A stretch of DNA of 64,000 bases, taken from contig NC_089587.1 in NCBI RefSeq assembly GCF_019320115.1, forward strand, positions 81,942,162-82,006,161, read 5' to 3'. The translations under genes were made by a program, and so were the position numbers. This document shows, one piece after another, positions 1,825-57,853 of this stretch (position 1 is the first letter of the stretch; each line of letters starts with the position of its first letter). This DNA is from Miscanthus floridulus. Its lineage: Eukaryota; Streptophyta; Magnoliopsida; Poales; Poaceae. The notes beneath the pieces are model-generated. The model did no database searches and was not told where the DNA came from. It saw nothing but the letters and a program-made list of their open reading frames with translations.

Positions 1825-4800
1825 TGTCGCACCCAATTTTGCAAAGCAAAACCAAGTACTCATATATGTGCGCCCAGGATGTCCAAACACACACATATAT
1901 CACAAATTGCAATAGTATCAAAGTAAAGTACTTATTACATCGCATATCTCATCATAAAGTTAAATACAAAGTTTGCTCGAAGGCAATATTATTACAAACA
2001 CAGCGGAATAACTAGCCCAACTGCCATAGGGACTCCAACTAGTGAACGTCTCCCTAGTAGTCCTGGACATCCTTCGAAAACTCTTCATATCCATTATCTG
2101 TTACCCATCTAGGATTTTCATTGGATGTAAAGCAAGTGTAAGCTCACCATGCTTAGCAAGTATAACAAAGGGGTCTATGAGGCTCAAATAGGCTTGACAC
2201 TGTTTGGCTGTGGTTCACAATTTTAGTTGATCAATTTTTAGCAACCTGAATTACTACTTTAATGAACAGTAGCAATTCCCAAGTGGTATTAAAGTATCAA
2301 AGCTTTATCTCATAACCCATCCATCCATCAACCACAGTAACCACTAATCTCGAAGGATCCAGACCGCTCGTATCCGTGAGCACGGCTGTTATAACAGGTT
2401 AATTATTTCTGTAGAAATGGTACATCTTTACCCATCGAGCTATGATTCCCAATGCTGGGGTTTGCGAGACCCACTACACCTCTTCCTAGGAAGTGTGGCA
2501 GAGTTTCACTATGAAACCCTTAGCTAGTTGCACTAACAGGTCGTAGCTACAAAGGAATAGCACACGTGGGCATCGTAGCACGGTGCACACCCTAACAGAA
2601 AAAGGAAAGATACCCTCTTACCCCTTACTGGAGCTACAGATGAGCTAGTACAAACTAGATAATAGGTTAAAGTCAGAGCCATTTGACACTCGGGGTTGTA
2701 CGGTCCCTCCTGGGTTGCCGCTTCAGGATTAAGTCCTTATGGAGAGGCACTAGAGTACTCAACCTTGTACTCCAGCCCCCTATCTGTTGCTAAAAAGTTC
2801 TATTTTATCACATTGCATATAGTCTTAAATATGTTTAACAATTACTTCATGTTAAGCGCTGCAGCATCTATCCAAAATGCATACCCAATAAACCCAGGTA
2901 TCAAGGATATGTGGTACAAGGAATCATCTAGGTAAAGTCCTTAAAGGCAATTCAAATTAAACTCATGCATGAATGTAAGTGGTAGTAGTTCATAGGTAAT
3001 AAGGGGCCTTTGGTACACTTGCCTTCCTCAAAGTCATCCTAGGAGTACTGCTGATCCTGCTGGGGGTCCTCAGTCACCTCGAATGGCTCACCCTCTAATC
3101 GTTATCCAATCATCAATCAAACATCATTCCAATCATTACATGCATACAAGATAGAACTCCATTAGAACAGTACACCAAACAGTGAAAACATATGTTGAAA
3201 AGCTTATAGATCTATTCTACGCATTACTACGAACACATGAGCGAAAGAATCACTCAAATCGGACTTAAAACGTGAAAGTTATGCATGAAATAAGATGTAA
3301 TGGCAATTCTGTAAATAAACTAACCTATTTTCAAATTAAAACAATTAAAAATCTGAATTTAAATGAAATTTGGACCTGGCATACTATTTCTGGAAATGAC
3401 AGGGTTCTAAACGAATAAAATCAGGATCGAAAAATAATTATTTTGAACTAACCAGGACTGCGGGTTGATTCACTAAAAACCGAGGGGCTATTTTGTAAAA
3501 CTGGCATGGCTGACCGCGTGTTGACCGGGGCTGCTGACTCATCTGACACGTGGCGCACTGTGGTTCGCTCGGTGCACCACATGGCGTGGACCAGTGCTGA
3601 CGCAGGCACGGTGCGCCGGGTCCATGGTTCACCGTGGACCGGCCACTTAAGTCCAACCGGTATCTAATCTGGGCCATCCATGCTAGATCCAACGGCGCAG
3701 GGGTGAGGGCCGGTGGTGGCTCGCCGAGGAAGAAGCCCATGGTGGCGGCGCCATGGCTGGCGATTCAGTGCTTGCGGAAACGACGTTCTAGGGCGCCATT
3801 TGACCATCTAGGGGCATGGAAAGATGGAGATGCTCATCGTGAGTCGTCTGGAGGGGAACGCGACGTCCGAGAAGGCTCCGAAGCTGGTCGTCGACGGTGG
3901 CCGCAAACTGGAGAGAGAAAAGGCACACGGGTGAAGGCGAATCCGGGCGAAACAAGGCCAATTCAAGTAATTATGGATACCTTTGGCTGCGGTGAAACAC
4001 GGTGAGGCCTCGGCTGGCTTCGGTGATGGCGTTCGTGCTCGGGAGGGGGGGATTCACCGGCGGCGGTGGCTCATGGCAGCGGGCAGGGGATGGAGAAGGG
4101 CAGAGGGGAGGGGCTCGGCCTTTATAGGCGGGCGGCAGCGGTGTACAAGGAAAGGGAGCGAGGCGGGTTCGGCGCTTTCCATACGGGCATTGGTGGCCTT
4201 CCATCAGAGCCGCGCCATTGACGACAGAGAAAAGGAAAGAGCGTCGGGGAAGAAAGGAAGGTGGATGACGCGGCTGACAGGTAGGACCAGCATGAAGCGA
4301 GGGAGAAGGGAGCGGTGCATGCAGGCGAAGCCGAGGTGGGCCGCGGCTAAGCTGGGCCAGGCAGAACGGTGGGCCACCGAGCTGGCTGGAAGGGCCGCGT
4401 GCGGGGGGGGGGGAAAGAAAGTCTCGGCAGTAGGCTGGGCCGCGCGGGGTGCGGGCCATAGTGCTGATGTGGGGTAGGCCGCTGGTTGATGCCAGCGCGG
4501 GAAAAAAAAGAAGGGCTGGGCTGGGCTGCTTCGGTTGGGCTGAAAAAAAGAGAAGATGAATTCTTTTCAAATCCAATTTTTTTTCCAATTCTATTTTCTC
4601 CATTTTAAGCCAAATTCAAATAAGTTTTGAATTCGATTTTCAAATCATCTAGCCCTACACTCAATCAAAAACCACATGATTCGGCATGAATGCAACAAAC
4701 AAGTTTCTAAACTTATGGTTTATTTTATTTATACAATATTTATTATTTGACCTATGTTAGAAATACCTAGAAAATGTATAAATAGGGCAAGAATTTAATT

Positions 4801-4830
4801 GCTAATTGCAGTAGAATTTTGGGTGTTACA
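1825..4830 (-). repeat. 3' LTR of the chromovirus
   Basis: About 3006 bp, matching 11230-14239 along its whole length. The plus strand starts TGTCGCACC and ends GGGTGTTACA, giving a TG...CA LTR on either strand. Open frames inside it (for example 3634-4005 and 3983-4477) recur in the other LTR only because the copies are homologous. The GC-rich part around 3600-4500 is likely the promoter/leader region, as seen in large Tekay LTRs. Confidence 0.93.
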
Positions 4831-4846: not shown

Positions 4847-6474
4847 GATAAATCTCGTCCTCGAGATTCGGATGGTTCAAAGAGATTGGGATAGTCAGTT
4901 CTCAGATCCTCCTCTCTTTCCTAAGTTGCCTCATCCACTGAGTGTCTGTTCCACTGAACCTTGCACATTCTTATTATTTTGCTCCTTGTGATTCTCTCCG
5001 CTATTTCTAGGATTCTTACTGGATATTCTATGTATGATAGATCCCCTCGGATATCCAGTTCTTCCAAAGGTAGTTGTTCCTCAAGTACTCTCAAACATTT
5101 CTTAAGTTGTGACACATGGAAAACATCATGAACACCTAAGAGCTGCTCCGGTAACTCTAACTGGTAAGCAACTTCTCCTCTCCTGTTGATGATCTTGAAT
5201 GGTCCCACATACCTGGGTGACAACTTTCCCTTAGTATGGAATCTCTTTACTCCTTTCATAGGTGAAACTTTGAGATAGACAAAGTCACCAATTTCAAATG
5301 CCAAATCTCTTCTTCTTGTGTCCACATAGCTTTTCTGTTGGGACTGTGCAACCTTTAGGTTTTGCCTTATTGTTTGCACTTGTTTTTCTACCAGCTGCAA
5401 AACATCTGGTCCAAAGACTTGGCTTTCCCCCGTTTGATTCCAAAACAATGGTGTTCTGCACTTCCTACCATACAATGCCTCAAATGGTGCCATCTTAAGA
5501 CTCTTTTGGTTGCTATTATTATAGGAGAATTCGGCATATGGTAAACTCTTATCCCAACTTGTCCCATACTGCAGAGCACAAGCTCTTAGCATATCCTCTA
5601 AGATCTGATTTGTTCTCTCGATCTGTCCATCTGTTTAAGGATGGTAAGCTGAGCTAAAGTTCAACTTCATATCCATTAACTCATGCAATTTCTACCAAAA
5701 ATGTGATGTGAACTGTGTACCCCTATCCGAAACAATCTTCTTTAGTACACCATGTAAACATACAATCCTTTCCATATATAACTCTGCTAACTTTGCACTC
5801 GAATAAGTTACCTTGACCGGAATGAAATGGGCCACTTTTGTCAGTCGGTCAACAATCACCCAGATAGAGTCAAATCCTCTCTGTGTACGGGGTAATCCAA
5901 CTATAAAGTCCATTCCAACTTCTTCCCATTTCCATTCGGGTATCTTCATAGGCTATAGTAAACCTACTGGCCTCTGATGTTCTGCTTTCACTCTTTGGCA
6001 CATATCACATATAGCCACATGTTCAGCTACATCTCTCTTTAGTCCATACCACCAGTATCTCTCTTTAAGATCAAGATACATTTTAGTACTTCCTGGGTGT
6101 ATGGAATAGGCTGAGTCATGAGCTTCCCTCAAGATAGACTCCCTAATAGATTTTACTTCTGGCACACAAATCCTTTTACCAAACCATACTATCCCTTGAT
6201 CATCCATATGGAATCCTGGGGCTTTACCAATCACTATACGCTCTGTAATATCCTTGATCCTCTCATCACCCAGCTGTCCCTTACGAATCTCTTGTTCTAG
6301 AGTGGGTTCCACCTCTAACTCCATGGTGTTGGCCACAATACCCAAATTCAAGTATTTGAACTCCTCACACAACTCTTCAGGTAATTGAGTTGTATAGGCC
6401 ATGTTCACATGACTCCTTCTACTCAAGGCATCTACTACTACATTAGCCTTTCCCGGGTGATAGTGGATATCCAA
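4844..6474 (-). pseudogene. Integrase with C-terminal chromodomain (pol, 3' part)
   Basis: Read on the minus strand from 6474: the HHCC zinc-binding region (HSAYSIHPGSTK ... CDMCQRVKAEHQ), then the catalytic core starting EVGMDFIVGLPRT with VSDRGTQFTS, the HP.TDGQ.ERTNQ segment, a GPF-like region (YVGPFKIINR), and a chromodomain-like end (EYPVRILEIAER ... KVQWNRHS). Chromodomain integrases of this lineage direct insertion to histone-marked chromatin. The frame is broken by TAG at about 5950, TAA at about 5636 and TAG at about 4921 (a Trp position in relatives), so no complete enzyme can be made. It lies in a different frame from RT, showing an indel between 6548 and 6474. Confidence 0.9.
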
Positions 6475-6547: not shown

Positions 6548-7780
6548 TCAGACTCTTATGTCCATATAAATCTTGCACTTATGACCAATCAAGTAGTGCC
6601 TCCATATCTTAAGAGCATGCACCACAGCTGCCAATTCCAGATCATGAGTCGGATAATTTAACTCATGTTTTCTCAGTTGTCTAGATGTGTAGGCAACAAC
6701 TCTGCCTTCTTGCATAAGAACACCTCCTAGACCTTGCCGCGAGGCATCACAATAGATAGAGAAACTTTTGGTGAGATCAGGTAAGATGAGCACTAGAGCA
6801 GAAGTTAGTCTCTTCTTCAACTCCTCAAAACTGCCCTAGCATTGTTTAGTCCATACAAATTTGGCATTCTTCTCTAACAACGCAGTCATGGGCTTGGCTA
6901 ACTTAGAGAATCCCTCGATGAATCTCCTATAATACCCAGCCATACCTAGAAAACTCTGAATCTCACTAACATCTTTGGGTGGCTTCCAACTCAACACATC
7001 TCTAACCTTCTTGGGATCTACTGCTACCCCTCCATTAGAGATTATGTGACCAAGGAAAGATACTTCTTTTAGCCAGAACTCACATTTGCTGAACTTGGCA
7101 TAAAGTTGATGTTCTCTAAGCTTCTGCAACACCAATCTCAAATGTTCTTCATGCTCTTCTTCATTCTTAGAATACACTAGTATGTCATCAATGAACACGA
7201 CGACAAACTTGTCAAGGTACTCCATGAACACTTTGTTCATCAGATACATTAAGTAGGCAGGTGCATTTATCAGACCAAAAGACATGACTATGAACTCATA
7301 TAGTCCGTAACGGGTCACAAAGGCGGTCTTGGGGATGTCAGTACGCCTTATCCTCAGCTGATGGTATCCAGATCGAAGGTCAATCTTGGAAAACACACAA
7401 GCCCCTTTCAATTGGTCAAATAGGTCATCAATTCTAGGTAATGGGTACTTGTTCTTAATTGTGACCTCATTAAGTGACCTGTAGTCTATGCACATCCTTT
7501 GTGTACCATCCTTCTTTTCTACAAACAGTACTGGTGCACCCCAAGGTGATGAACTAGGTTGAACATAACCCTTGTCTAACAATTCCCTTAATTGTTTCTT
7601 AAGTTCTGCTAATTCATTCACTCCCATTCTATAGGGTCTCTTAGCTATGGGTGCAGTTCTAGGTAAAAGTTCAATAATAAACTCGATGTCTCGGTCAGGT
7701 GGCATACCTGGCAATTCCTCAAGGAAGACATCTGGGTACTCATTCACTATCCTTATATCTTCTATGGTTGTGCCTTCCAA
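6548..7780 (-). pseudogene. Reverse transcriptase and RNase H (pol, middle part)
   Basis: Minus-strand translation from 7780 shows the RT region: [16 protein letters not shown], the template-grip stretch [47 protein letters not shown], and the catalytic [10 protein letters not shown]. It continues into [18 protein letters not shown] and the RNase H start ([25 protein letters not shown]). A TAG near 6837 separates RT from RNase H, and RNase H breaks off near 6548 before its later catalytic residues. The order RT, RNase H, integrase is diagnostic of Ty3/gypsy. Confidence 0.93.
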
Positions 7781-7877: not shown

Positions 7878-9281
7878 TTAATAACTGCTTTCTACAACCT
7901 TAGCCAATCCATACCTAAGATGACATCGATACCAGTAGAATTTATGACTACAAGATTTGCTTGAAATTCTACCCCCCCTTATGCTGAGACTAGCAGCTAA
8001 GCATATCCACTCTGCTTTCATTACCCCACTAGGTGAGCTTACTAACATGTGTTTCTTCATAACACTTACTGGAATACCATGCTTCTTTATGAATGTATAT
8101 GTTATGAAGGAATGCGAAGCACCAGAATCAAAAAGTACTGTAGCTGAGTTTGAGTTGACCGGAAACGTACCGATCACCACATCCGGTGCCTCCTGAGCTG
8201 TTTCAGCGGTAACATGGTTCACCTTTCCCCAAACGTAGTTCTACTGTGAATTAGTCTTCTTGGGGCATCTATTGGAGTAATGTCCTGGCTCTCCACAATT
8301 GAAGCACTTGTTGTCATTAACTGCATTTGGCGCTTTTGGTGCGCCATTCCTCTACGGAGCATTGGGGGCATTATTCATCACTGGTACATTGTTGGGTTGC
8401 TGCTGGCGCTGAGCTGGTGCCTTGTACTACTGTTGCTGCTGCTGTGCATGCTGTTGCTGCTAGTTATGGTTGGGACCTGTCTAACCTTGGTAGCACTGCT
8501 GAGGTTGAGTTTGTTGAGGGTTGGTACGGAAGCGAGAGTTGCTCCCGGATTGCTGTCCTTGAAATTTCCTCTTCTTGTCCTCCATCCGGCGGCACTTATT
8601 CTCAATCACTAAAGCTTTGTCCACCAGCTACTAAAAGTTAGCAAAGGTATGGGACAACAGCTGGTACTAGAGACCATCATTCAAGCCCTCCATAAACAGC
8701 TCCTGCCTCTTTCCATCCTCGTCTACCTTAGTAGGTGCATACCATGACAATTGTATAAACTTGTCACGATATTCAGCAATAGTCATGCTCCCTTGCTTAA
8801 GAGCCAAGAACTCCTTCTTCAGCTTCATCAGTCCTACAGGTACATGGTGAGTGCGGAAGGCACTGTGGAACTCAGCCCAAGTGATGGGATTAGCTTCGGT
8901 GCGGCCAAAGCGGAATGAGTCCCACCAATCCTGTGCAGCTCCCTGCAACTGTCCAGAAGCATATAAAACTTTCTCCCTATCATCACATTGGGCAATCTCC
9001 AGTTGTCTCTCAATGGCACATAGCCAATCATCGGCTTGGAGTGGGTCGGCAGAGTGCTTGAATACAGGTGGGTGTCCTTTCAGAAACTCTCCCCTCTTAT
9101 CTCTGACATGAGGGGGTGCATTCCCATTCCCTTGCCCCATGTTCTGCATGTTTTGGGCCATCTGTTGAAGCAACTGGGTCTGCATCATCATTACCTGCTC
9201 CTTGGTGACTGGGGGTGGTGGCGGCGGTTCCTCGCCTCCCTGGTTGTTCCTCCTGGTGTTCACCATCTGTAGAGGCATCAT
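7878..9281 (-). pseudogene. Gag nucleocapsid and aspartic protease
   Basis: One frame (lowest base divisible by 3) runs from ATG at 9281 (or 9266, MVNTRRN) through gag to 7878. Gag begins with a Pro-rich and Gln/Met-rich segment, then the capsid-like part (VFKHSADPLQADDWL, WWDSFRF, FHSAFRTHHVP, FLALKQGSMTIAEY). A Gln-rich linker leads to a CCHC zinc knuckle at 8306-8265. The protease follows, with the active site LFDSGASHSFI. Eight TAG codons interrupt this frame (lowest bases 8667, 8631, 8628, 8481, 8460, 8427, 8352, 8241), most within Gln-rich sequence. Gag packages the RNA; protease would process gag-pol. Neither can be made intact. Confidence 0.9.
8265..8306 (-). other. CCHC zinc knuckle of gag
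   Basis: Minus-strand translation is CFNCGEPGHYSNRC, a perfect C-X2-C-X4-H-X4-C nucleocapsid motif. It fixes the gag frame between two amber codons. Confidence 0.92.
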
Positions 9282-9999: not shown

Positions 10000-11046
10000 C
10001 TATGGGTATGGGTCGATGTTGGTGCTAGTGCTGGGGTCTCCAGATTCTCCTCTGGTCCTTGGGGGCGACTGAGCGGGTACTCCTGAATCTTCCACATCTG
10101 GACCTCCTAGCTGCTGCTTTAGTGTAGCGTTCTCACGAGCCAGCTGCATGTAGGCCCTCCCCATGACATCGAGCTCATCCAGGGCTTAATCCAAGTCAGT
10201 GTGGGTCTCAGCCAAGCACAACAGGGTAGGCCTCAGCCTCAGGTTTGCCTCTCCAAGTGGTGCAGCAATGTTGCACGTAGATTGTCCGCTCCGACGGTGG
10301 GGAAGATAGCGGTCATCCTCCTAGGCGATGTCGTCGAAGTGACGGTCGCGGTTGACCATCAACGCCTATCGAGCTGCATCCCTGATGACGGCCACACGTG
10401 TGAGCCATGTAGTGGTGGAACAGTGGATGTAGCGCACCCAAGTCCCCTCTTGGATGTACACTTCTGTCTCCCAGAAGTCGGTGTAGTCGGGGTGGGTCCA
10501 ATGCTCTGTCCTGTACTGTACAGTGCCTCCGGGGTGGTAGCGATGCACAAGTGCGAGAAGCCTAGGGTGGTAGTAGCCATCACCCTCCAAGTCGTAGTGG
10601 ATCTTCGTAGTCCATCCCTGAGCCAACGGTGCATTATGATCATCATCATTGTCATCATCCCCATCGTCTCCACCGTCTCCATCGTCTCCACCATCTCCAC
10701 CATCTCCACCATCATCAACATCAGAATCATCAGAACCATCTCCATCATCGGGGTCACCAGCTCCCTCCTGGCCACCTTGTTCCTGTACTTCCTTGGGATC
10801 TTCCTCAGACTCCTCTATCTCAATGGGTCCCTCAAACATGGGTCCCTCCTCTGTTTCTTCATCCATTGGATCCTCCAACAAGTCCTCCAGAGGTTCCCCC
10901 ATGGGCACCTCCACAGGTGGTTCCTCCTCTTGGTTCCTTAGAGCCTCCACAAGGTGTGCCGGGACACGCTTGCCCAAAGTGAACCTAGTCCTCCTAGTGG
11001 GCATTAGGATGGTCCTCTTGCGCGGGGTCTGCTTGGTACGGGCCAT
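10000..11046 (-). pseudogene. Extra ORF upstream of gag with a histone H3-like N-terminus
   Basis: ATG at 11046 on the minus strand, 165 bases after the PBS. The longest open part ends at 10366 (226 residues). The same frame then passes TAG at 10321 and TAA at 10186 and ends at 10000, so an unbroken ancestor would have had about 348 codons. The protein starts MARTKQTPRKRT; the first seven residues and ten of the first twelve match plant histone H3. A basic stretch follows (RRTRFTLGKR), then a Glu-rich and Asp/Gly-rich acidic region (about residues 48-135), a mixed region with YTDFWETEVYIQEGTWVRY, and past the stops a predicted coiled coil (ALDELDVMGRAYMQLARENA). I do not recognise the family. 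Possible roles (chromatin tethering, H3-reader decoy) are inference. Confidence 0.7.
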
Positions 11047-11214
11047 CTACAAGAATGAAAAGGTTGAGTATTATAACAAAATAATTTTTGGCAACAGATA
11101 AAGAACAGAATATAAGCAAAAATTTTATAGTAAAGTAAAGGTAGTAAAATAAAGATAATGAAATCCTAAAAATGTCCATTTCTATCTAGGTTGTTCATCC
11201 TACAGTCAGTTATA

Positions 11215-11227
11215 GCTCTGATACCAA
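11215..11227 (-). other. Primer binding site (tRNA-Met)
   Basis: The minus strand reads TTGGTATCAGAGC two bases after the 5' LTR end. TGGTATCAGAGC is the standard plant initiator tRNA-Met primer sequence. It fixes the element's orientation. Confidence 0.92.
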
Positions 11228-11229
11228 TT

Positions 11230-14200
11230 TGTCGCACCTAATTTTGCAAAGCAAAACCAAATACTCATATATGTGCGCCTAGGATGTCCAAACACACACA
11301 TATATCACAAATTGCAATAGTATCAAAGTAAAGTACTTATTACATCGCATATCTCATCATAAAGTTAAATACAAAGTTTGCTCGAAGGCAATATTATTAC
11401 AAACACAGCGGAATAACTAGCCCAACTGTCACAGGGACTCCAACTGGTGAACGTCACCCTAGTAGTCCTGGACATCCTCCGGAAACTCTTTATATCCATT
11501 ATCTATTACCCATCCGGGATTTTCATTGGATGTAAAGCAAGTGTAAGCTCACCATGCTTAGCAAGTATAACAAAGGGATCTATGAGGCTCAAATAGGCTT
11601 GACACTGTTTGGCTGCAATTCACAATTTTAGTTGATCAATTTTTAGCAACCTAAATTACTACTTTAATGAACAGTCCCAATTCCCAAGTGGTATTAAAGT
11701 ATCAAAGCTTTATCTCATAACCCATCCATCCATCAACCACAGTAACCACTAATCTCGAAGGATCCAGACCACTCGTATCCGTGAGCATGGCTGTTATAAC
11801 AGGTTAATTATTTCTGCAGAAATTATACATCTTTACCCACCGAGCCATGATTCCCAATGTCGGGGTTCGCGAGACCCACTACACCTCTTCCTAGGAAGTG
11901 TGGCAGAGTTTCACTATGAAACCCTTAGCTAGTTGCACTAACAGGTCGTAGCTACAAAGGAATGGCACACGTGGGCATCGCAGCACGGTGCACACCCTAA
12001 CAGAAAAAGGAAAGATACCCTCTTACCCCTTACTGGAGCTACAGATGAGCTAGTACAAACTAGATAATAGGTTAAAGTTAGAGCCATTTGACACTTAGGG
12101 TTGTACGGTCCCTCCTAGGTTGCCGCTTTAGGATTAAGTCCTTATGGAGAGGCACTAGAGTACTCAACCCCGTACTCCAGCCCCCTATCTGTTGCTAAAA
12201 AGTTCCATTTTATCACATTGCATATAGTCTTTAAATATGTTTAACAATTACTTCATGTTAAGCGCTGCAGCATCTATCCAAAATGCCTACCCAATAAACC
12301 TAGGTATCAAGGATATGTGGTATAAGGAATCATCTAGGTAAAGTCCTTAAAGGCAATTCAAATTAAACTCATGCATGAATGTAAGTGGTAGTAGTTCATA
12401 GGTAACAAGGGGCCTTTGGTACACTTGCCTTCCTCAAAGTCGTCCTAGGAGTACTGCTGATCCTGCTGGGGGTCCTCAGTCACCTCGAATGGCTCACCCT
12501 CTAATCATGATCCAATCATCAATCAAACATCATTCCAATCATTACATGCATACAAGATAGAACTCCATTAGAACAGTACACCAAACAGTGAAAACATATG
12601 TTGAAAAGCTTACAGATCTATTCTACGCATTGCTATGAACACATGAGCGAAAGAATCACTCAAATTGGACTTAAAACATGAAAGTTATGCATGAAATAAG
12701 ATGTAATGGCAATTCTATAAATAAACTAACCTATTTTCGAATTAAAACAATTAAAAATCTGAATTTAAATGAAATTTGGACCAAGCATACTATTTCTGGA
12801 AATGACAGGGTTCTAAACGAATAAAATCAGGACCAAAAAATAATTATTTTGAACTAACCAGGACTGCGGGTTGATTCACTAAAAACCAAGGGGCTATTTT
12901 GTAAAACTGGCATGGCTGATCATGTGTTGACCGGGGCTGCTGACTCATCTGACACATGGCACACTATGGTTCGCTCGGTGCACCACATGGCGTGGACTAG
13001 TGCTGACGCAGGCATGGTGCGCCGGGTCCATGGTTCACCGTGGACCGGCCACTTAAGTCCAACCGGTATCTAATCTGGGCCATCCGTGCTAGATCCAACG
13101 GCACAGGGGTGAGGGTCGGGCGGTGGCTCACTTAGGAAGAAGCCCATGGCGGCGGCGCCATGGCTGGCGATTCGGTGCTTGCGGAAATGACGTTCTAGGG
13201 CGCCATTTGACCATCTAGGGGCATGGAAAGATGGAGATGCTCACCGTGAGTCGTCTGGAGGGGAACGCGGTGTTCGGGAAGGCTTCGAAGCTGGTCGTCG
13301 ACGGCGGCCGCGAACTAGATAGAGAAAAGGCGCGCGGGTGAAGGCGAATCCGGGCGAAACAAGGCCAATTCGAGTAATTAGGGGTACCTTTGGCTGTGGT
13401 GAAACACGGTGAGGCCTCAGGTGGCTTCGGTGACGGTGTTCACGCTCGAGAGGGGGGGATTCACCGGTGGTGGTGGCTCACGGCAGCGGGCAGGGGATGG
13501 AGAAGGGCAGAGGGGAGGGGCTCAGCCTTTATAGGCGGACGACAGCGGCGTACAAGGAAAGGGAGCGAGGCGGGTTCGGCGCTTTCCATACGGGCGCCGG
13601 TGGCCTTCCATCGGAGCCGCGCCATTGACGGCAGAGAAAAGGAAAGAGCGTCGGGGAAGAAAGGAAGGTGGACGATGCGGCTGACAGGCGGGACCAGCGT
13701 GCAGCGAGGGAGAAGGGAGCGGTGCATGCGGGCGAAGCCAAGGCGGGCCACGGCTGAGCTGGGCCAGGCGGAACGGTGGGCCGCCGAGCTGGCTGGAAGG
13801 GCCGCGTGCAGGGGGGGGCGGGGAAAGAAAGTCTCAGCAGCAGGCTGGGCCGCGCAGGGTGCGAGCCATAGTGCTGATGCGGGGCAGGCCACCGGTTGAT
13901 GCCAGCGCGGGAAAAAAAAAGAAGGGCTGGGCTGGGCTGCTTCGGTTGGGCTAAAAAAAAGAGAAGATGAATTCTTTTCAAATCCTTTTTTTTCCAATTC
14001 TATTTTCTCCATTTTAAGCCAAATTCAAATAAGTTTTGAATTCAATTTTCAAATCATCTAGCCCTACACTCAATCAAAAACCATATGATTCGGCATGAAT
14101 GCAACAAACAAGTTTCTAAACTTATGGTTTATTTTATTTATACAATATTTATTATTTGACCTATGTTAGAAATGCCTAGAAAATGTATAAATAGGGCAAG

Positions 14201-14239
14201 AATTTAATTGCTAATTGCAGTAGAATTTTGGGCGTTACA
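11230..14239 (-). repeat. 5' LTR of the chromovirus
   Basis: About 3010 bp, homologous to 1825-4830 with scattered, mostly transitional differences and a few one- to few-base indels. Open frames such as 13390-13899 correspond to those of the other LTR and are not treated as genes. Confidence 0.93.
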
Positions 14240-14855
14240 AGGATTACGAGGACGAGTAGTCGGTTCTTCACGCAACCTACCCCTTTTGGGACTTGTTTAC
14301 AAAGGGGGAGTGTTAGGCTTTGATTTATCTTGTAAATAAGTTAGTTGGTCACTTAGTTTTGAGACTTTAAAACCTTTAGCTTGTGTGAACTATGTCATGT
14401 GTGGCTAATATGTGATGGACAACTATATATATGTGTTTGTGATGCATGATTGTAGGACAAGTAATGGTTATCTATCTACCTTATTAGCTTGTGTTTGTCT
14501 CTACTTGTGATGGTGGATGTATTTTGGATGGCCATGTGTTGCTTCAAGTTTCTACTTTGAAATATTGGCCATCATATTCTCTTTTACTTGTGTGAAATAA
14601 CATGTCATATTGCATCTCTTTTCACGAATATATATTTGTTCACACACACTTGTTGCACCCCACAGATTGCAAAATTTAGGTCGAGCTTTTGTCTTGATGT
14701 ATGCAAATCATGTATAGATGATTCTAATTGAAATTGAAATTCATGCATACATCAAGGGGGAGCTCTTCATAAATTTTGGGTTTCAAAAGCTTTAAATTCT
14801 TTCATTCTTATAAAAGCCTAAGTTGGTTATCATTAATTACCAAAAAGAGGGAGAT
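14240..14855 (+). other. 3' internal region of the outer LTR element
   Basis: The first five bases (aggat) are the right copy of the target duplication. 14245-14259 finishes the interrupted gag-like frame with a TAG. The rest has no long ORF: AT-rich sequence containing aaagggggag (about 14301) and ends caaaaagagggagat, a polypurine tract immediately before the LTR start TGAAAG at 14856. No protease, RT or integrase is present, so this element was non-autonomous or lost its pol. Confidence 0.7.
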
Positions 14856-22638: not shown

Positions 22639-23139
22639 ATGGCGCACAACCTCATTGTCACATTGTTCATTCTAGCGGTCTATGTCGCCGCGGTGGCGAC
22701 ACCATTAGTCTATGCTACCAAATCTCCAACGAGCACAATAGCCAAGGAGGACGAAGCAACCAAAGAAGGGGATGCAGCCGCCAAGGCGCCCGAAGCCGCC
22801 ACCAAGGGGTCTGCGAAGGACCACAAAGCAGAAGCTAAGGGGGATGCGCCCACCACGGCAACCGATGTAGCCACCAAAGGGTCTGCCAAGGACCACAAAG
22901 AAGAAACTAAGGGGGATGCGTCCGCCAAGGCGCCTGAAGCAGCCACCAAGGGGTATGCCAAGGTCCCCAAAACAGACGCTAAAGGGGCTGCTGCAAAAGG
23001 GTCCGGAGCACCCATGTCATGGCCGGATGGGGGGCCTGAGTTCGTCCAAATGGTCATCAAGAACCCCTTCTTGAAAACCACACCACCATCAAGTGATGAC
23101 CTCCCCATTGACCCCACTCCAGAAGGTAGCATGACCTAA
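22639..23139 (+). CDS. Secreted Lys/Ala-rich repeat protein (166 residues)
   Basis: Single exon with ATG in an acaATGg context. Residues 1 to about 26 form a signal peptide (LIVTLFILAVYVAAVA). From about 48 to 120 there are three repeats of about 25 residues: KAPEAATKGSAKDHKAEAKG, then DVATKGSAKDHKEETKG, then KAPEAATKGYAKVPKTDAKG. This part is highly charged, Lys/Asp/Glu/Ala-rich and probably disordered, resembling LEA or Lys-rich cell-wall proteins in composition. The C-terminal part (MSWPDGGPEFVQMVIKNPFL, then PPSSDDLPIDPTPEG) is distinct and could be a conserved functional end. There is no GPI signal or cysteine in the mature part. I do not recognise the family; the repeats could simply be expanding coding minisatellites. 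Confidence 0.65.
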   Translation: MAHNLIVTLFILAVYVAAVATPLVYATKSPTSTIAKEDEATKEGDAAAKAPEAATKGSAKDHKAEAKGDAPTTATDVATKGSAKDHKEETKGDASAKAPEAATKGYAKVPKTDAKGAAAKGSGAPMSWPDGGPEFVQMVIKNPFLKTTPPSSDDLPIDPTPEGSMT

Positions 23140-24630
23140 AAAGCAAAATTATGATCGACCAAATATTAAGGTAAGAATATGGAGGTATTATGATGTTTCT
23201 ATATTACATTTGGTTTAACTTCTCTAGTATGTTGAGAGTATTTGAGTAGGATTAGGAATATTTGTACTATGATAACATTTCGCACGTTTAATTAATTCCA
23301 TGTTTTATTTTACTAGTATATATAAAGAGAAGGTTCAATTATGCCTTTTTATATTGATTTTATACGATGTGATTTGTTGGTTGCTAAACCTTGGTGTCTG
23401 TGATGCTACAACTCCTATTGACACCATTTGAGGCTTATTTGAGCAATTACATTTATGCAAAATATTGCTTATGTGTTTGGTTAGGTGTCTAGGGACTTCT
23501 TTGTGATAATATACAGCTTTGGGGACATTTTCCAAAGTGTTCCAGCCAGCCCAAAAAGAGCATCCCGAGCTCCCTCTCCCTCTTGTGGTGCTTGTTCTTC
23601 TCCTTCTGGGGTTAAGAGAGGGATCTGAAATATTTGACGGGTGAGACTTTGATCTCCCGAATCTATCTATTAGAGAGTGAAATTGGTGGGGATTTAGAAC
23701 CTCCCCAACTTTGTTGGCTCGCACCTTTTTTATTTTCGTATTTACAGTGGACTGCTTCCTTGTCATTGCCTATGCTTTTTCCCACAAGTGGTTCCCAAGC
23801 AAATCCTTGCGTGTACGTGTGATTCGGTATTCCTCTTACGATATGAGTTGATTGGTTCCCATCTCGCTTTCTACCGGTGCCATTTGTTGAAGATTGGATA
23901 AATTTGCTCATGGTAGCTGGATCGACATACGAGGCATATGTGTTTTTTGATGTGTTGTTGATCTGCGGTGGGAATAGTTGTTGGAAGTACTTTGTGTACA
24001 GGTCACATGCAAAATTTAAACAATTCTTGATCTATGATTTTCATGTTCGTGGTCTATGCTAATAACTTATGGACTTATGCCCGGAAGTCCGGACCTCCGA
24101 AACGTCCAAAGAAATATCTTGAGGTTCTAGACTTCGCTACATCCTAAGTTTGGGTGTTAATTTTTGGTTCCTATTTATACAGCTGCTCCCGTTTGTCCTA
24201 TATACAGTGTCAGTGAGGATGACTCAGATTTACGCACATATTTAGATGTTATTTTGGATTCAAAGTTAGTACTCAATTTTGCTAAACGGAGGCCCTCTCA
24301 TATGGTATTGCCCTGTGGGCATTTTGTTGGAGGGTTTGTGGGCGTCACAAAATGCCACAAAAAATACACGGGTTGCATGTTGACATTATATTTTCTCATT
24401 TTTGAATATATAACGTATATGACAAACTAATGAAGTTATTTTTAGTGCATGTGTACTATGTTTAATTTCGTATTTCCACGCCGGGTGGGCAGTGGCGAGC
24501 CCTCCCATTTTTTCGCATTTGGTACTCGTAAGTCGTATGTCGTAGTATACCAACCGGACTACCGGAGCCTACAATCATCGGCGCCAAAAGAAAAAACAGA
24601 CAAATCAAAACTCCCGCCAGGTGCACACTT
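23140..24630. other. Intergenic region between repeat-protein gene and H2B
   Basis: After a short AT-rich 3' region there is sequence with short ORFs on both strands (for example 23335-23766 minus) and no domain I recognise. 24070-24130 contains ggaagtccggacctccgaaac, faintly like the repeats of the LTR at 15190, suggesting old retroelement debris. Confidence 0.4.
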
Positions 24631-24664
24631 CACCGCCTCCCACCGACGTCTGGGCCCTCATCCT

Positions 24665-24682
24665 CCACGTCACCGATCCGCG
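24665..24682 (+). promoter_or_regulatory. Plant histone type I element (hexamer plus octamer)
   Basis: The sequence CCACGTCACCGATCCGCG is an exact match to the known plant histone type I element (hexamer ACGTCA next to the octamer GATCCGCG), which confers S-phase and meristem expression. It lies about 158 bases upstream of the TATA box. Confidence 0.9.
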
Positions 24683-24720
24683 ACGCTCCCTCCACCCTTT
24701 CCCGCCCGAGCCACCTCAGC

Positions 24721-24798
24721 GATCCGCGTCGATCTGCATCCCGTTCGTCCACCGGAACGGCCGAACCCCATCGCACCCCTCCACGCCAGCGATCCGCG
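24721..24798 (+). promoter_or_regulatory. Two further histone octamers (GATCCGCG)
   Basis: GATCCGCG recurs at 24721-24728 and 24791-24798, giving three copies with the type I element. A CCAAT box follows at about 24813. This is the expected architecture of a replication-dependent plant histone promoter. Confidence 0.85.
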
Positions 24799-24839
24799 GC
24801 TCGCACCCTCCCACCAATCGCGTCTCACCTCCCACCCCC

Positions 24840-24846
24840 TATAAAG
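24840..24846 (+). promoter_or_regulatory. TATA box of H2B
   Basis: TATAAAG lies 93 bases upstream of the start codon and directly downstream of the histone octamers. Confidence 0.85.
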
Positions 24847-24938
24847 CCGCGCCCCAGCAACAATATATCCCCAAGCACCCACGGCCACACCCAGCCCGCC
24901 GAGAAGAAGCTCGATCCCGAACCCACCGCCCGATCCCG

Positions 24939-25397
24939 ATGGCACCCAAGGCCGAGAAGAAGCCCGCCGCGAAGAAGCCGGCGGAGGAGGAGCCGGCGAC
25001 GGAGAAGGCGGAGAAGGCCCCGGCGGGTAAGAAGCCGAAGGCCGAGAAGCGGCTCCCGGCCGGCAAATCCGCCGGCAAGGAGGGCGGCGAGAAGAAGGGC
25101 AAGAAGAAGGCGAAGAAGTCGGTGGAGTCGTACAAGATCTACATCTTCAAGGTGCTGAAGCAGGTGCACCCGGACATCGGCATCTCGTCCAAGGCCATGT
25201 CCATCATGAACTCCTTCATCAACGACATCTTCGAGAAGCTGGCGGCGGAGGCGGCCAAGCTGGCGCGCTACAACAAGAAGCCCACCATCACGTCCCGCGA
25301 GATCCAGACCTCGGTCCGCCTCGTCCTCCCCGGCGAGCTCGCCAAGCACGCCGTCTCCGAGGGCACCAAGGCCGTCACCAAGTTCACCAGCTCCTAG
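24939..25397 (+). CDS. H2B: Histone H2B
   Basis: 152 residues, single exon, as usual for grass core histone genes. The start [13 protein letters not shown] is in a gATGg context after the TATA box; the upstream open frame (from 24621) is promoter sequence. Residues 1-60 are the plant-type Lys/Ala/Pro/Glu-rich tail. The histone fold starts near [25 protein letters not shown], continues through [19 protein letters not shown] and ends with [20 protein letters not shown] and [16 protein letters not shown]. The near-C-terminal [15 protein letters not shown] carries the Lys that is monoubiquitinated in plants. It pairs with H2A in the nucleosome. There are no disruptions, GC content is high, and the S-phase promoter is complete, so this gene is probably active. 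Confidence 0.98.
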
Positions 25398-28242: not shown

Positions 28243-29961
28243 TGTAGGATCTCTGATACGCCTAGAGGGGGTGAATAGGCCTGTAAAAATTTAACTCAAA
28301 TCAAAGTCAAATTCACCCATGGCACTGCCGCCCTAAACAGTGGCACTACCGCACATGCAGGAGAGATTAGTTCACAGTTCAAAATCTACCCAACAAAATT
28401 TAGATCGGGTAAATTTCTTAGCTTCCTATAAGGTAGTATATCTCAGATCAACAACTAAAAGTGGTAGGAACACCACACACAAGTAGGTCGGCCTCACTCT
28501 AGAAATCACCTCAACAACAATAAGAACACAAGTGTAGCAACACAAGCACAAGATGACACAAGGATTTATCCTGTGGTTTAGCTCGCCACCAAGACTTGCC
28601 TAAGTCTATGTTGTTGAGGTATACCACTAAGACTTAGGGCTTTGCGACCCTACCTCATTCTCAAGTCAACAGAGTGAACTCTTGAGATGAGAGGTGGTTA
28701 TATTTGCTGCAAGAGGTGGTTACAAACCTCCCGGGGCTACCACACAAGTTGGCAAGCTCCACAGGCGACGCTCTAGCCGGCTAGGAGCCAACCTCCAAGA
28801 GTAACAAACACAACCATCGGCTAAAATATGAACCAAGTGCTCTTTAGAGTTTGGGAATCAATAGAGCTGCTCTCTAATCGAGTTTTGGAAACTTATCCCT
28901 CAAGGATTGATGGGGAAATCAATGGATTTGCTTAGGGGCTTGAGGTCAACAATGGAGTGAGAGAGAGCTCCTGCTCTATTTTGGGCGTGCGGAAGTGAGG
29001 AAGAAGAGAGCTGGTTGGTTACTATTGGGAAGGAAGAAGAAAGGTATATATACCCTGAGCCCCCAACGGTCACTTAAATCGTAGATAACCATTGGAGAGA
29101 AAAGAGAAAGGTATATATACCCCTAGCCCCCAACATACACTGCACCCAAGGGGTCAGGCGAGACAAAGCACGTGGCCTCGAGGTCGGGTGAGATGAAGCC
29201 CATAACCAAGGGGTTAGGCAAGACAAAGCCCACGGCCTCGAGGTCGGGCGAGACAAAGCCCATGACCAATGGGTCAGGCGAGACGGAGCCCGCACCTAAG
29301 GAGTCAGACAAGACGGAGCTCGCGGCCTTGAGATCGGGCGAGACGAAGCTCGCGACCAAGGGGTTGGGTGAGACGGAGCATGTGGCCTCGAGGTCGGGCA
29401 AGGCAGAGCCCGTGGCCTTGAGGTCAGGTGAGATGGAGCCCGCACCCAAGGGATCAGGCGAGATGGAGCACGTGGCCTCGAGGTCAAGAGAGACAAAGCC
29501 CGTGACCTAGGGGTCGAGCGAGATGGAGCCCGTGGCCTCAAGGTCGGGCGAGATGAAGCCTGCACCCAAGGGGTTAGGCAAGATAGAGCTCACACCCAAG
29601 GGGTTGGGCGAGTCGGAGCTCGCACCCCGCAAGACAGCAAGGGTAATAGCAAAGTGTAGACTGTTTTGGCTGTGAATCTGAGGATACATATGGTTGTTTG
29701 AGCACTTGGTAGCACATATTAGCTTAAACATTATGGTCCCCTTTATAGTACGGCTTTTCCTATACTCAAATTCAATATATAAAAGAATTTAAATCTCCTT
29801 TGAGTTTGAAGCCATCTACATTTATAATTAGGGGCTCCTCCGTTTCATATAGCATCCTCGAATATAAATTCTCAGCTTATCATCTTGATAAATCCCATTA
29901 GTTCTCTAATTGCGTGGTCATTATCATCAAAACCCATAATTAAGGCTTGATTGCGCTTTCA
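28243..29961 (-). mobile_element. Solo copia-type LTR with 5-bp target duplication
   Basis: 1719 bp. On the minus strand it starts TGAAAGCGCAATCAAGCC and ends with the typical cctattcaccccctctaggcgtatcag motif, finishing ATCCTACA. Perfect duplications ACATA flank it (28238-28242, 29962-29966). No PBS, PPT or coding region accompanies it, so the element was removed by LTR-LTR recombination. GTATATATAC boxes (29044-29053, 29111-29120) in a locally duplicated segment mark its promoter. Confidence 0.92.
29141..29630 (-). repeat. 30-bp minisatellite, about 16 copies, in U3 of the solo LTR
   Basis: The unit is ggcctcgaggtcgggcgaga plus cgaagcccgt, alternating with a variant starting accaaggggtc. 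The period is exactly 30 bases, so the plus strand reads open from 29172 to 29510 as a ten-residue repeat (SRSGETKPAT-like). Units differ mainly by transitions. It lies directly upstream of the TATA boxes in LTR orientation. Confidence 0.92.
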
Positions 29962-43172: not shown

Positions 43173-46111
43173 GTCAACGGGTGTGAAGGGTAAGGAAGCT
43201 AGTCGAACTAATTAGGATCCATTTAGATAGTTGGAATGTAGGGTCGCTTGCAGGTAAGTTAAGAGAATTAGTTGATACCACGACTAGAAGGCGTGTAAAT
43301 ATATTATGCATTCAAGAGACTAAATAAAAGGGTCAGAAGGCAAAGGAGGTGGACAATACAGGTTTCAAGCTTTGGTACACAGAGACGGTCGCGAATAGAA
43401 ATGGAGTAGGAATTTTGATTGATAAGAGCCTCAAGAATGGTGTGGTGGGAGTGAGAAGGCAAGGAGATAGGATTATCTTAGTCAAGCTTGTCGTTGGTGA
43501 TATGGTCTTGAATGTAATTAGTGCGTATGCCCCCCAAGTAGACCTCGACGAGAGTGCTAAGAGACAGTTCTGGGAAGACTTAGATGGCCTGATTAGAGCT
43601 GTACCTAGTAGTGAGAAGCTTTTTATAGGAGGAGATCTTAATGGGCATGTAGGTACTACAAGCGTAGGTTTCGAGGCAATTCATGGAGGTTTTGGGTATG
43701 GTAGTAGGAATTAGGAGGGAGAGGAAGTTCTGGACTTCGCGGTAGCTTTTGACCTGATGATAGCCAACACTTTCTTTATAAAGAGAGAATCTCATCTAGT
43801 GACCTTCAGTAGCGGACAACACTCTAGCTAAATTGACTTTGTCCTCGCAAGAAGAAAGGACAAACGAGCATGCTTGGGTTGCAAGGTGATACCAGGGGAG
43901 TGTGTTGTTTCTCAACATAAGCTTTTGGTGGCAGACTTTCGTTTTCAGGTGCGTGCCCGTAGGGATAAATAAGCTAAGATTGAAAGAACAAAGTGATGGA
44001 AACTGAAAGGGGAGACGTCAGAGGTATTTAGGGAAAGGGCTATCAAAGAGGGCTCTTGGAAGAAAGAAGAGGACATAAACAACATGTGGGAGAAGATGGC
44101 AACCAACATTCGGAAGGTGGTCTCTGAGGTGTGTGGAGTAACCAAAGGAAGTGGAGGTGAGGCTTAAGATGTTTGGTGGTGCAACGAGGAAGTCCAAAGG
44201 GCTATTAAGGAGAAGAAAGAATGCTATAGACGCTTGTACCATGACAGGAGTGTGGACAACATAGAGAAGTACAAGGTGACAAAGAAGACTGCAAAGCGAG
44301 CTGTAAGTGTGGCAAAGGATAGAGCGTACGAGGATCTTTACCAATATTTGAGTACGAAGGAAGGAGAGAAGGACATTTATAGGATGGTTATGGTTCGTGA
44401 GAGAAAAACAAGGGACTTTAACCTAGTTAAGTACATTAAGGATGAAAGAGAGCATCTCTTGGTGAAGGCGGATGAGATCAGACATCGATGGCAAGAGTAT
44501 TTTGACAAATTGTTCAAGTGTGAGAATACGGACACAACCTTTCAGTTGGATGACTCTTTTGATGACACCAATAGGCGTTTTGTGCGGAGAATCCAAGAAT
44601 CTGAGGTTAGAGAGGCGTTGAAAAGGATGAAAGGAGGTAAGGCGATGGGACCGGATGGTATCCCAATCGAGGTGTGGAGATGCCTCGGGGACATAGCTAT
44701 AGTATGGCTAACTAAGTTGTTCAACCATATTTTTCGATCAAACAAGATGCCTGACGAGTGGAGGAGAAGTATATTGGTACCGATCTACAAGAATAAAGGG
44801 AATATTCAAAGTTGTTCTAATTACCGGTGAATTAAGTTGATGAGCCATACTATGGAGCTATGGGAGAGAATTATCGAGCATCGCTTGAGAGCAATAATGC
44901 GGGTCTCTATGAACTAATTTGGTTTCATGCCCGGAAGATCAACCATGGAAGCCATTTTATTAATAAGACAAGTTATGAAGCGGTATAGGGAGAAGGACTT
45001 ACCCATTGTTTTTATTGATTTGGAGAAGGCTTATGATAAAATACCAAGGAATGTTATGTGGTGGGCTTTGGATAAACATAAAGTCCCAACAAAGTACGTC
45101 GGGCTCATTAAGGACATGTATAACAATGTTGTGACTAATGTTCGAACAAGTGATGGAGACACGGATGACTTTCCGATTAGGATAGGACTACATCAAGGGT
45201 AAGCTTTGAGCCCTTATCTGTTTGCCTTAGTGATGGATGAGGTCACAAGGGACATACAATGGGACATCCCTTGGTGTATGCTTTTTGCGGACGATGTAGT
45301 GCTAGTTGATGAAAGCTGGACATGAGTAAATCAGAAACTGGAGTTATGGCGGGAGACTTTGGACTCCAAAGATTTTAGACTCAGTAGAACTAAAACTGAG
45401 TATATGAGATGTGACTTCGGCACTACTACTTGGGAGGAGGAAGATATTAGTTTGGAAGGTCAAGTAGTGCCTAGGAAGGATACCTTTCGATATTTAGGAT
45501 CAATGCTACAGAGAGACAGGGATATTGATGAAGATGTTAGCCATAGAATCAAAGCAGGGTGGACATCTGGTGTCCTATGTGACAAAAGGGTACCACAGAA
45601 GCTAAAAGGCAAGTTTTATAGGACGACGATTAGACCTGCTATGTTGTATGGTGCAGAATGTTGGCCTACGAAAAGACGACATGTTCAACAGATAAGTGTC
45701 ACGGAAATGCGTATGTTGCGTTGGATTTGCGGTCATACAAGAAGGGATCGAGTTCGGAACGATGATATACGTGATAGATTAGGGGTAGCACCAATTGAAG
45801 AAAAGCTTGTCCAACACCGGTTGAGATGGTTTGGATATATCCAACGGAGACCTCTAGAGGCACCGGTGCGTAGTGGAATCCTAAGCCAGGATAGTAATGT
45901 GAAGAGAGGCAGAGGAAGACCGAAGTTGACTTGGGTCGAGGCAATAAAAGGAGACTTGAAAGGATGGAATATACCCAAAGACTTAGCCTTAGATAGGAGT
46001 GCTTGGAAAACAGCTATTCACGTGCCTGAACCTTGATGGCTTCTGCTGGGTTTCAACTCTAGCCTACCCTAACTTGTTTGGGACTTAAAGGCTTTGTTGT
46101 TGTTGTTGTTG
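43173..46111 (+). mobile_element. RTE-type LINE inserted in exon 2 of the INCENP-like gene
   Basis: 2939 bp flanked by ttctcttga (43164-43172) and ttcttttga (46112-46120), a 9-bp target duplication with one change. The order is an APE endonuclease (NILCIQETK, GVGILIDKSLK, VISAYAPQVDLDE, FIGGDLNGHVG, stop, then DFVLARR), an RT ([61 protein letters not shown]), and a C-terminal part ending HVPEP before the stop. The 3' end is the phrase WLLLGFNSSLP plus (TTG)n, characteristic of plant RTE LINEs. Several stops and frame changes disable it. It is nearly full length and in the sense direction of the gene. Confidence 0.9.
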
Positions 46112-56456: not shown

Positions 56457-57853
56457 GTGGCAGCGCCGCCCCCACTTTATTTATCTGCTGCCTTTCGCCA
56501 TCCCCAACATGACCACCACCACTCTGCAGCGAAATCCTGTATAGGAGTCGCTCGCGCATCAGCGGAGGCAGAGGCAGGCCGGCCGCCGGGCAGGACGCAG
56601 GACCGCATTCCGTTCCGCCGCCACGGCCGCCTTCCCCTAGCAGAGGTACGCTCGCTGCCCTTCCTTCCTTCCTTCCCATCCCGCCCTGGCTATGGTTGCT
56701 TCTTGCGTCCCTGACTGACTCTGATTGATTTGACTGATTGGGGGTGGGGTGGGTGCCGTCCGTCCCTCCTTCCCCCATCACTTCCTCCAACGTTGGTTTC
56801 TTTCTTTCTCGCGTTTCTTGTTTGTTCATCTGTCGATGCAATGCCGCCGCCGCCGCCGACCGTCACTTTCTTCATCTGCTCTGTGCCTCTGTTCCCCTTT
56901 TCTTACGCATTTAATGGCCTCCCTCCGCTCCACGTTCAGCGCCTAGCAGATGTCCGATGTCGATGTGCTTGCTGCTCGTAGCCTGCCTGCCGTGCCTACC
57001 TCCTGTGATTCCGGTGTGATCCACTTCCTTTCCTTTCCAAGGGGAGGGGAGAAAGCGGGGAGGCGCTCGTGATTCCGCCACCTGTTCCGGTCCAGGTTGC
57101 AGCTAGCCAGCGCTTTTCTTGCTAATCTTATTAATCTCCTGTTCCGGCCTGGCCACTCGTGGAGCCACGCCCACATTCGTCCCCCACCCCCGTCTCCTTT
57201 CCTGCCAAACGCTGGCGCCTCTCTGTGATCTTTGGGGCCTTGTTCATAGTGCTGTGCCGGGTGCCATTTGCTGCTTCTTCTTCGCTGATGCAATGGGCCG
57301 GGTGCTGGATCTGTGCGGTGGTTCGGGCTTCCTCTAGGTGCGGCTGCTTGCTTGCGCCTATCTCCTTGCTCCCTGCCCGCAAATCTTGCGTGCAGCTGCA
57401 GCAGCTTGTTATTTGAGCGTTTCTATGAATGCTTTAGGTTTCCCAGTTCTCACCCGGTGGGTGGGCTGCTAGTCTCTCCCAGCAATTTTGTGGTGTTTGA
57501 TATGTGTTCCTGTGTCCGCTGTTAAATTCAAATTCCTGTACAGTTACCAGTTCTTTGTCAACAACTCTGCTTTTAAGACGGCTCTTATCAGTATACTACC
57601 TGCTGATATAAATACTGTTCTTTGTTCTTCATTGTTTCTGTAGATGCCAAGGAACTCAATTGAGAAGTGACCAGTCTTGCTAGATTTTGTATAAAGTGAA
57701 GTTAAAATTGGATCTTCACTCGTCTGATTGATCTGCACTGCTGGAACTCCTTGTGACCAGACCGTGGAGGCTGCCAAGCACAACGTGCCTGGGCACCAGG
57801 CTACTAAACCAGCGGCTGCGGATCCAGTTCCTGCAAAGGAGGAGAAGAAAGCA
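56457..57853 (+). promoter_or_regulatory. 5' leader of the kinase gene with a probable leader intron and uORF
   Basis: Consensus splice sites (cagag|GTACGC at 56645/56646 and ttctgtAG|atgcc at 57643/57644) suggest a leader intron of about 1 kb, common in this kinase family. The second leader exon begins with a nine-codon uORF (57644-57670, MPRNSIEK and TGA). The frame of the main ORF is open from 57728 but has a TGA at 57725 and no ATG before 57854, so the leader extends to 57853. Confidence 0.55.

Follow-up and report, generated by a model that had tools for sequence, protein, structure and literature searches.

Tekay-type chromoviruses have already been described as carrying extra open reading frames (ORFs), and passages of one paper characterise the eORF proteins as highly divergent and question their function (PMC6317226). 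The grass members of this class, the 5' additional ORF (aORF; eORF-5'F) of maize Tekay, sorghum Sb7 and rice Retrosat-2, share a position upstream of gag and a sense orientation. Their proteins have long disordered regions, a part of helix and sheet and a long C-terminal helix, with a weak similarity to the double-stranded RNA-binding motif (DRBM; TM 0.35-0.37), according to parts of PMC11728184; those same parts leave an H3-like N terminus unmentioned, the word 'histone' occurring 0 times.

We analysed a stretch of 64,000 nucleotides from Miscanthus floridulus (contig NC_089587.1, positions 81,942,162 to 82,006,161 of the forward strand), referred to below as the window, which contains on its minus strand a Tekay-type element with a decayed aORF of this class. 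The accessory protein that it encodes starts like the tail of histone H3, and we consider, at roughly even confidence, that it is most likely a decoy for silencing factors that engage the H3 tail. An H3-like start of a Tekay aORF was not reported in any of the open-access PMC papers searched, the 2011 extra-ORF paper lying outside that coverage; this paper, by Steinbauerova, reportedly deals with extra ORFs in plant Ty3/gypsy elements.

The 226-residue translation of the aORF begins MARTKQTPRKRTILMPTRRTRF. Residue comparison of MARTKQTPRKRT with H3 MARTKQTARKST bears out what a preliminary description of this DNA had stated, namely that the first seven residues (7/7) and 10/12 overall are identical, and the acidic Asp/Glu/Gly region that it had also reported is present in the translation. 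The probability of a random match to H3 1-11 at 9 or more of the 11 positions is 1.5e-10 when background frequencies are taken from the remainder of the protein, and 1.0e-8 under the harsher background of the family's own N-terminal composition, both values concerning one N terminus before conservation in relatives is counted. When the family profile was compared with all PDB sequences, a histone H3 peptide ranked second, aligned 1-19 on 1-19 (E 0.31), behind a ribosome-quality-control subunit (E 0.16, columns 4-111) whose match we take to reflect the composition of the acidic part. With a consensus 22-mer as the query, histone H3 chains and peptides were the sole hits among the 60 of 81 PDB matches listed; the reversed 22-mer had no match in PDB, and a control with another conserved 22-mer returned one unrelated chain. 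Elsewhere in the protein, matches to the H3 peptide reach at most 4/11 in each of 20 rows, and a six-frame pattern scan of the window found no H3-tail motif besides the aORF start. Capture of a whole histone was considered and rejected, as the alignment to H3 ends by residue 17-19 in the PDB searches and Pfam gives no histone fold, with no histone family detected in the scans of the window ORF and nine relatives. Judged on these comparisons of sequence, the match to the H3 tail is real and very unlikely to be chance; it may have arisen either by descent (capture) or by convergence.

The wider family consists of 149 proteins fetched through three protein searches. One of these contributed the best 120 of 135 matches, and another scored just the 7,983 candidates with the most shared words, which may have left some relatives out; a search of viral and prokaryote contig collections yielded no DNA from relatives. 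The proteins fall into two branches. One lies close to the window, has Miscanthus floridulus as its named source and includes P0014 as its outermost member in the tree; the other is distant (Urochloa humidicola and Digitaria exilis). An N-terminal profile run over all 149 covers the motif region in 23 and has no match in 123; P0008 and P0011 begin just downstream of the motif and are uninformative, and P0131 matches weakly and elsewhere in the protein. The preliminary description had proposed looking for relatives without the H3-like start, and this check found the pattern M-x-x-[TN]-[KR]-x-T-x-x-K retained in 22 of the 23 covering relatives and degraded in one, P0146. This Digitaria gene model, whose first part is a different one, weighs against full conservation. 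Chance similarity in a single decayed element, in favour of which there is the short length of the motif and nothing else, is thereby left with a negligible probability, and on the P values together with the 22/23 relatives we reject both chance and a private event of this copy.

Residue by residue, the constraint is uneven. The main alignment holds 28 of the 149 proteins plus the window (29 rows) and covers the start in 20 rows, to which P0020, P0026 and P0028 were added for residue counts, giving 23 rows (22 relatives and the window). In H3 numbering, with the Met uncounted, T6 and K9 occur in 23/23, T3 and K4 in 22/23, R8 in 21/23, A1 in 20/23, R2 and T11 in 18/23, S10 in 10/23, A7 in 9/23 and Q5 in 4/23, positions 5 and 7 varying freely; the rows being related, these counts are not independent events. 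The MARTKQT start that had been put forward is conserved as a pattern and is less common in its exact letters, residue 5 being Q in just four rows. Family N-terminal peptides include ARTKQTPRKRT, ARTKLTPRKST and ARTKCTPRKSTGG, and P0014 starts MARTKCTPRKSTGG. Some distant members are closer to H3 than the window is, among them P0143, which reads MARTKQTCRKST, with 11/12 residues as in H3. A proline at alignment column 17 in 19/20 rows may be compared with P16 of H3, the register of the window branch being gap-dependent.

Across eight distant pairs of our own choosing, identity over the first 12 residues amounts to 67-92%, against 32-44% in the folded domain and 15-29% in the linker. A rate model (19 rows, 314 columns; P0019, with a frameshifted C-terminal part, excluded from the tree) places M1, T3, K4, T6 and K9 below the 10th percentile and finds positions 5 and 7 fast (95th and 72nd percentile), while 12/305 ten-column windows of the alignment are slower than the motif. 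This is a sequence match beyond chance that is also conserved, as expected of an H3 mimic, and we hold it very probable that the motif is real and under selection.

Selection on the start could also act on nucleic acid rather than protein, the H3 likeness then being a by-product of a splice acceptor, packaging or translation signal near the start codon. By eye, TTTTCATTCTTGTAG (11047-11061, minus strand), which adjoins the aORF ATG, resembles a splice acceptor; passages of a 2005 paper describe introns upstream of gag as not reported for long terminal repeat (LTR) retroelements (PMC1142308). The codon at H3 position 5 (codon 6) nevertheless encodes Q, L, M, I, W, C or R in the 23 rows, between nearly fixed neighbours, and because a nucleotide signal should not skip a single codon, we regard such a constraint as quite improbable.

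A somewhat more credible alternative, but one we still think unlikely, is a basic patch serving nuclear import or the binding of RNA, in which the match to H3 reflects the same import receptors or basic composition, with no mimicry of marks. H3 tails also function in import, and the motif stretch is basic, yet the threonines T3 (22/23) and T6 (23/23) match the lysines in conservation, the register is exactly that of H3, and most rows of the distant branch have a second, C-terminal basic stretch (PPRKRxRYG or similar). Parts of PMC11728184 predict that other Tekay 5' aORF proteins localise to the nucleus. Exchange between K and R, seen in 1/75 motif cells vs 14/310 in other basic columns, does not distinguish between the two readings, mimicry and basic patch.

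The element with the aORF is a Tekay-type chromovirus of 12.4 kb on the minus strand, with LTRs 95.15% identical over 3,013 columns and, in the Gypsy order, LTRs, primer binding site (PBS), Gag, protease, reverse transcriptase and integrase. Its features in the window are as follows.

1820-1824 and 14240-14244: likely target-site duplication, AGGAC/AGGAT, one mismatch
1825..4830, minus strand: 3' LTR, 95.15% identity to the 5' LTR
4921..5592, minus strand: C-terminal part of integrase leading into a Tekay-type (type II) chromodomain, interrupted by a stop (SH3_Tf2-1; motifs by eye)
5953..6474, minus strand: integrase zinc-binding domain region (Pfam Integrase_H2C2)
6836..7780, minus strand: reverse transcriptase (Pfam RVT_1)
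7878..8222, minus strand: protease (RVP_2)
8667..9281, minus strand: gag (Pfam Retrotrans_gag, E 6.5e-18)
10000..10365, minus strand: homologous C-terminal part of the aORF protein (helix region), outside the window ORF, the frame continuing past the premature stop
10366..11046, minus strand: 5' aORF, 226 residues, shortened copy, between PBS and gag
10366..10623, minus strand: predicted domain of double-stranded RNA-binding domain (dsRBD) fold, its C-terminal end lost to the premature stop (approximate limits; by homology to modelled relatives)
10633..10932, minus strand: acidic D/E/G-rich linker (approximate limits, by eye)
11011..11046, minus strand: H3-tail-like N terminus MARTKQTPRKRT, pattern kept in 22/23 relatives
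11215-11226, minus strand: PBS TGGTATCAGAGC, just inside the 5' LTR
11230..14239, minus strand: 5' LTR, from the LTR comparison

The PBS, TGGTATCAGAGC, is presumably of the tRNA-Met type, and the aORF lies between it and gag on the minus strand, as first described. Parts of PMC3350952 give the type II chromodomain motifs as (K/R)-X-(L/T)-R-X-(K/R) and EEXTWEXE. By eye, the window copy reads R-I-T-R-S-K and D-E-A-T-stop-E-R-E, D replacing E and a stop replacing W in the second motif; the piece upstream of the stop has no Pfam match. These motifs and the gene order of the sequence point to the Tekay (Del) chromoviruses. The integrase chromodomain claimed for the same element is present, but in this copy it is interrupted by a stop. 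The further suggestion, that the element pairs a reader of H3 marks with a mimic of the tail, is weak. Type II chromodomains are without a full methyl-lysine cage, the first and usually the third aromatic residue being missing and the partner unknown according to parts of PMC6317226 and PMC3350952, so that the element's own chromodomain would be a poor candidate partner; we have downgraded the idea that it reads its own tail.

The start of the aORF is unambiguous because an in-frame stop directly precedes its ATG, and the plus strand of 10366..11046 in frame 1 is interrupted by stops. Past the aORF stop, the same frame is homologous to relatives and is interrupted by two more in-frame stops ahead of the point where the proteins of the family end, and relatives that are complete between the H3-like start and the conserved C-terminal end have 314-381 residues. 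By its sequence the window aORF is a decayed, shortened copy from this protein family, and as the copy is broken, the unit worth studying is the family rather than the single copy. Position and models give here an ORF in sense orientation, placed between PBS and gag, whose product has a disordered part, a helix and sheet part and a long C-terminal helix, and on that basis the ORF belongs to the known class of grass Tekay 5' aORFs.

Two gene models show aORF sequence within annotated host genes. P0020, a Miscanthus floridulus model for the putative disease resistance protein RGA3, has aORF sequence at its end, including MARTKQTPRKRT, and is perhaps a transposable element insertion or a mis-joined gene model. 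P0146, from Digitaria exilis and labelled DUF8039, has aORF family sequence followed by what by eye is gag-like sequence, and at least one host gene annotation therefore includes such an element. Elsewhere in the window, and again by eye, an ORF at 24621-25397 (plus strand), about 10 kb from the element, encodes a histone H2B-like protein; 45359-46036 (plus strand) resembles the 3' end of a reverse transcriptase ORF of the long interspersed nuclear element type; and two ORFs at 57728-59839 (plus strand) have the look of plant AGC-type protein kinase exons. The stretches 22768-22991 and 29142-29626 consist of tandem repeats, with units of 72 bp and of about 30/60/90 bp, and may be coding.

The middle domain of the modelled relatives is predicted to have the alpha-beta-beta-beta-alpha fold of a dsRBD, and its structural matches are the plant DRB proteins HYL1, DRB2, DRB3, DRB4 and DRB7.2 and the dsRBD of DCL4, at 8-20% identity. 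The family is thus predicted, from models, to have a dsRBD-fold domain followed by a long C-terminal helix. Pfam dsRBD gave no match in the nine proteins scanned, none of the aORF proteins scanned against Pfam and NCBIfam scored above a curated cut-off, and Foldseek alone returned no significant match. The second helix of the family starts S-D-R-[DE]-T-Q-E-A or T-A-R-x-T-R-A-A, less basic than the RNA-binding motif KKxAK of dsRBDs, and the domain may bind protein instead.

What the H3-like start could do depends on its exposure. The initiator Met is removed when the second residue is small, and because residue 2 is small in 22/23 rows, the Met should be removed and ARTK exposed. Without its Met the protein would show ARTKxTxRK, equivalent to the N terminus of H3 including K4 and K9, and could lure host factors that recognise this tail or modify it. 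Residues 2, 4, 6 and 8 of an extended peptide would lie on one face, and these are largely fixed, as is K9, while 5 and 7 are free, an arrangement that would suit a reader recognising K4me0 together with K9. According to parts of PMC7617993, SHH1, which is connected with the recruitment of Pol IV, recognises H3 that is unmethylated at K4 and methylated at K9, and ZMP is a reader of H3K4me0. Candidate targets of a decoy are SHH1 (H3K4me0/H3K9me), ZMP (H3K4me0) and H3K9 methyltransferases; the decoy would occupy readers and writers used in silencing the element, and the dsRBD-fold domain and helix might anchor it on element RNA, on dicing or DRB proteins, or on itself.

These steps carry different weight. 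The protein probably acts through binding partners of the H3 tail, whereas anti-silencing as the purpose of that tail is a tentative proposal that we place somewhat short of even. A broader version, in which the H3-like end engages H3K4me0/H3K9 readers or writers and the dsRBD-fold end disturbs the DCL/DRB small-RNA machinery, is rather unlikely; if true, a single protein would block silencing both at chromatin and in its RNA arm. The motif match and its conservation apply equally to a chromatin tether, in which the tail would bring the particle or preintegration complex to H3-reading complexes and steer integration with no block on silencing. A short targeting peptide has a precedent in Ty5 integrase and Sir4 (parts of PMC4176367), but here the motif belongs to an ORF of its own, located upstream of gag, and not to integrase, and entry of the aORF protein into particles is without evidence. 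We infer that the decoy is the leading reading and place the tether, in itself rather unlikely, second.

If the tail works, the 5' ORF of grass Tekay elements, which belongs to a class of unknown function, would have a purpose, and the coexistence of these elements with H3K9-based and RNA-directed silencing could be approached directly. We found no case of H3-tail mimicry in a retrotransposon or plant mobile element in open-access PMC papers, and in the available parts of a review of H3-tail mimicry the words 'plant' and 'retrotransposon' have 0 occurrences each (PMC10208167). The same parts of that review describe SARS-CoV-2 ORF8, with ARKS, and other viral H3 mimics, which resemble the aORF in that a parasite's protein carries a short motif of the H3 tail; ORF8 has a four-residue motif of the K9 type, whereas the aORF match lies at a true N terminus and extends over H3 positions 1 to 11, with P near 16. 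They also describe influenza A H3N2 NS1, whose C-terminal ARSK histone mimic is read by PAF1C and CHD1. The likeness to NS1 is that a parasite protein joins an H3-tail mimic with a part that binds double-stranded RNA, in the aORF a dsRBD fold that is predicted only. NS1 binds double-stranded RNA, and its RNA-binding domain has a different fold. The two proteins further differ in that NS1 mimics with four C-terminal residues and is not claimed as a homologue of the aORF protein, and in that binding has been shown for NS1, while the aORF is known from sequence. Should the broader version with two active ends be true, the aORF protein would be a plant retrotransposon counterpart of influenza NS1, independently reached.
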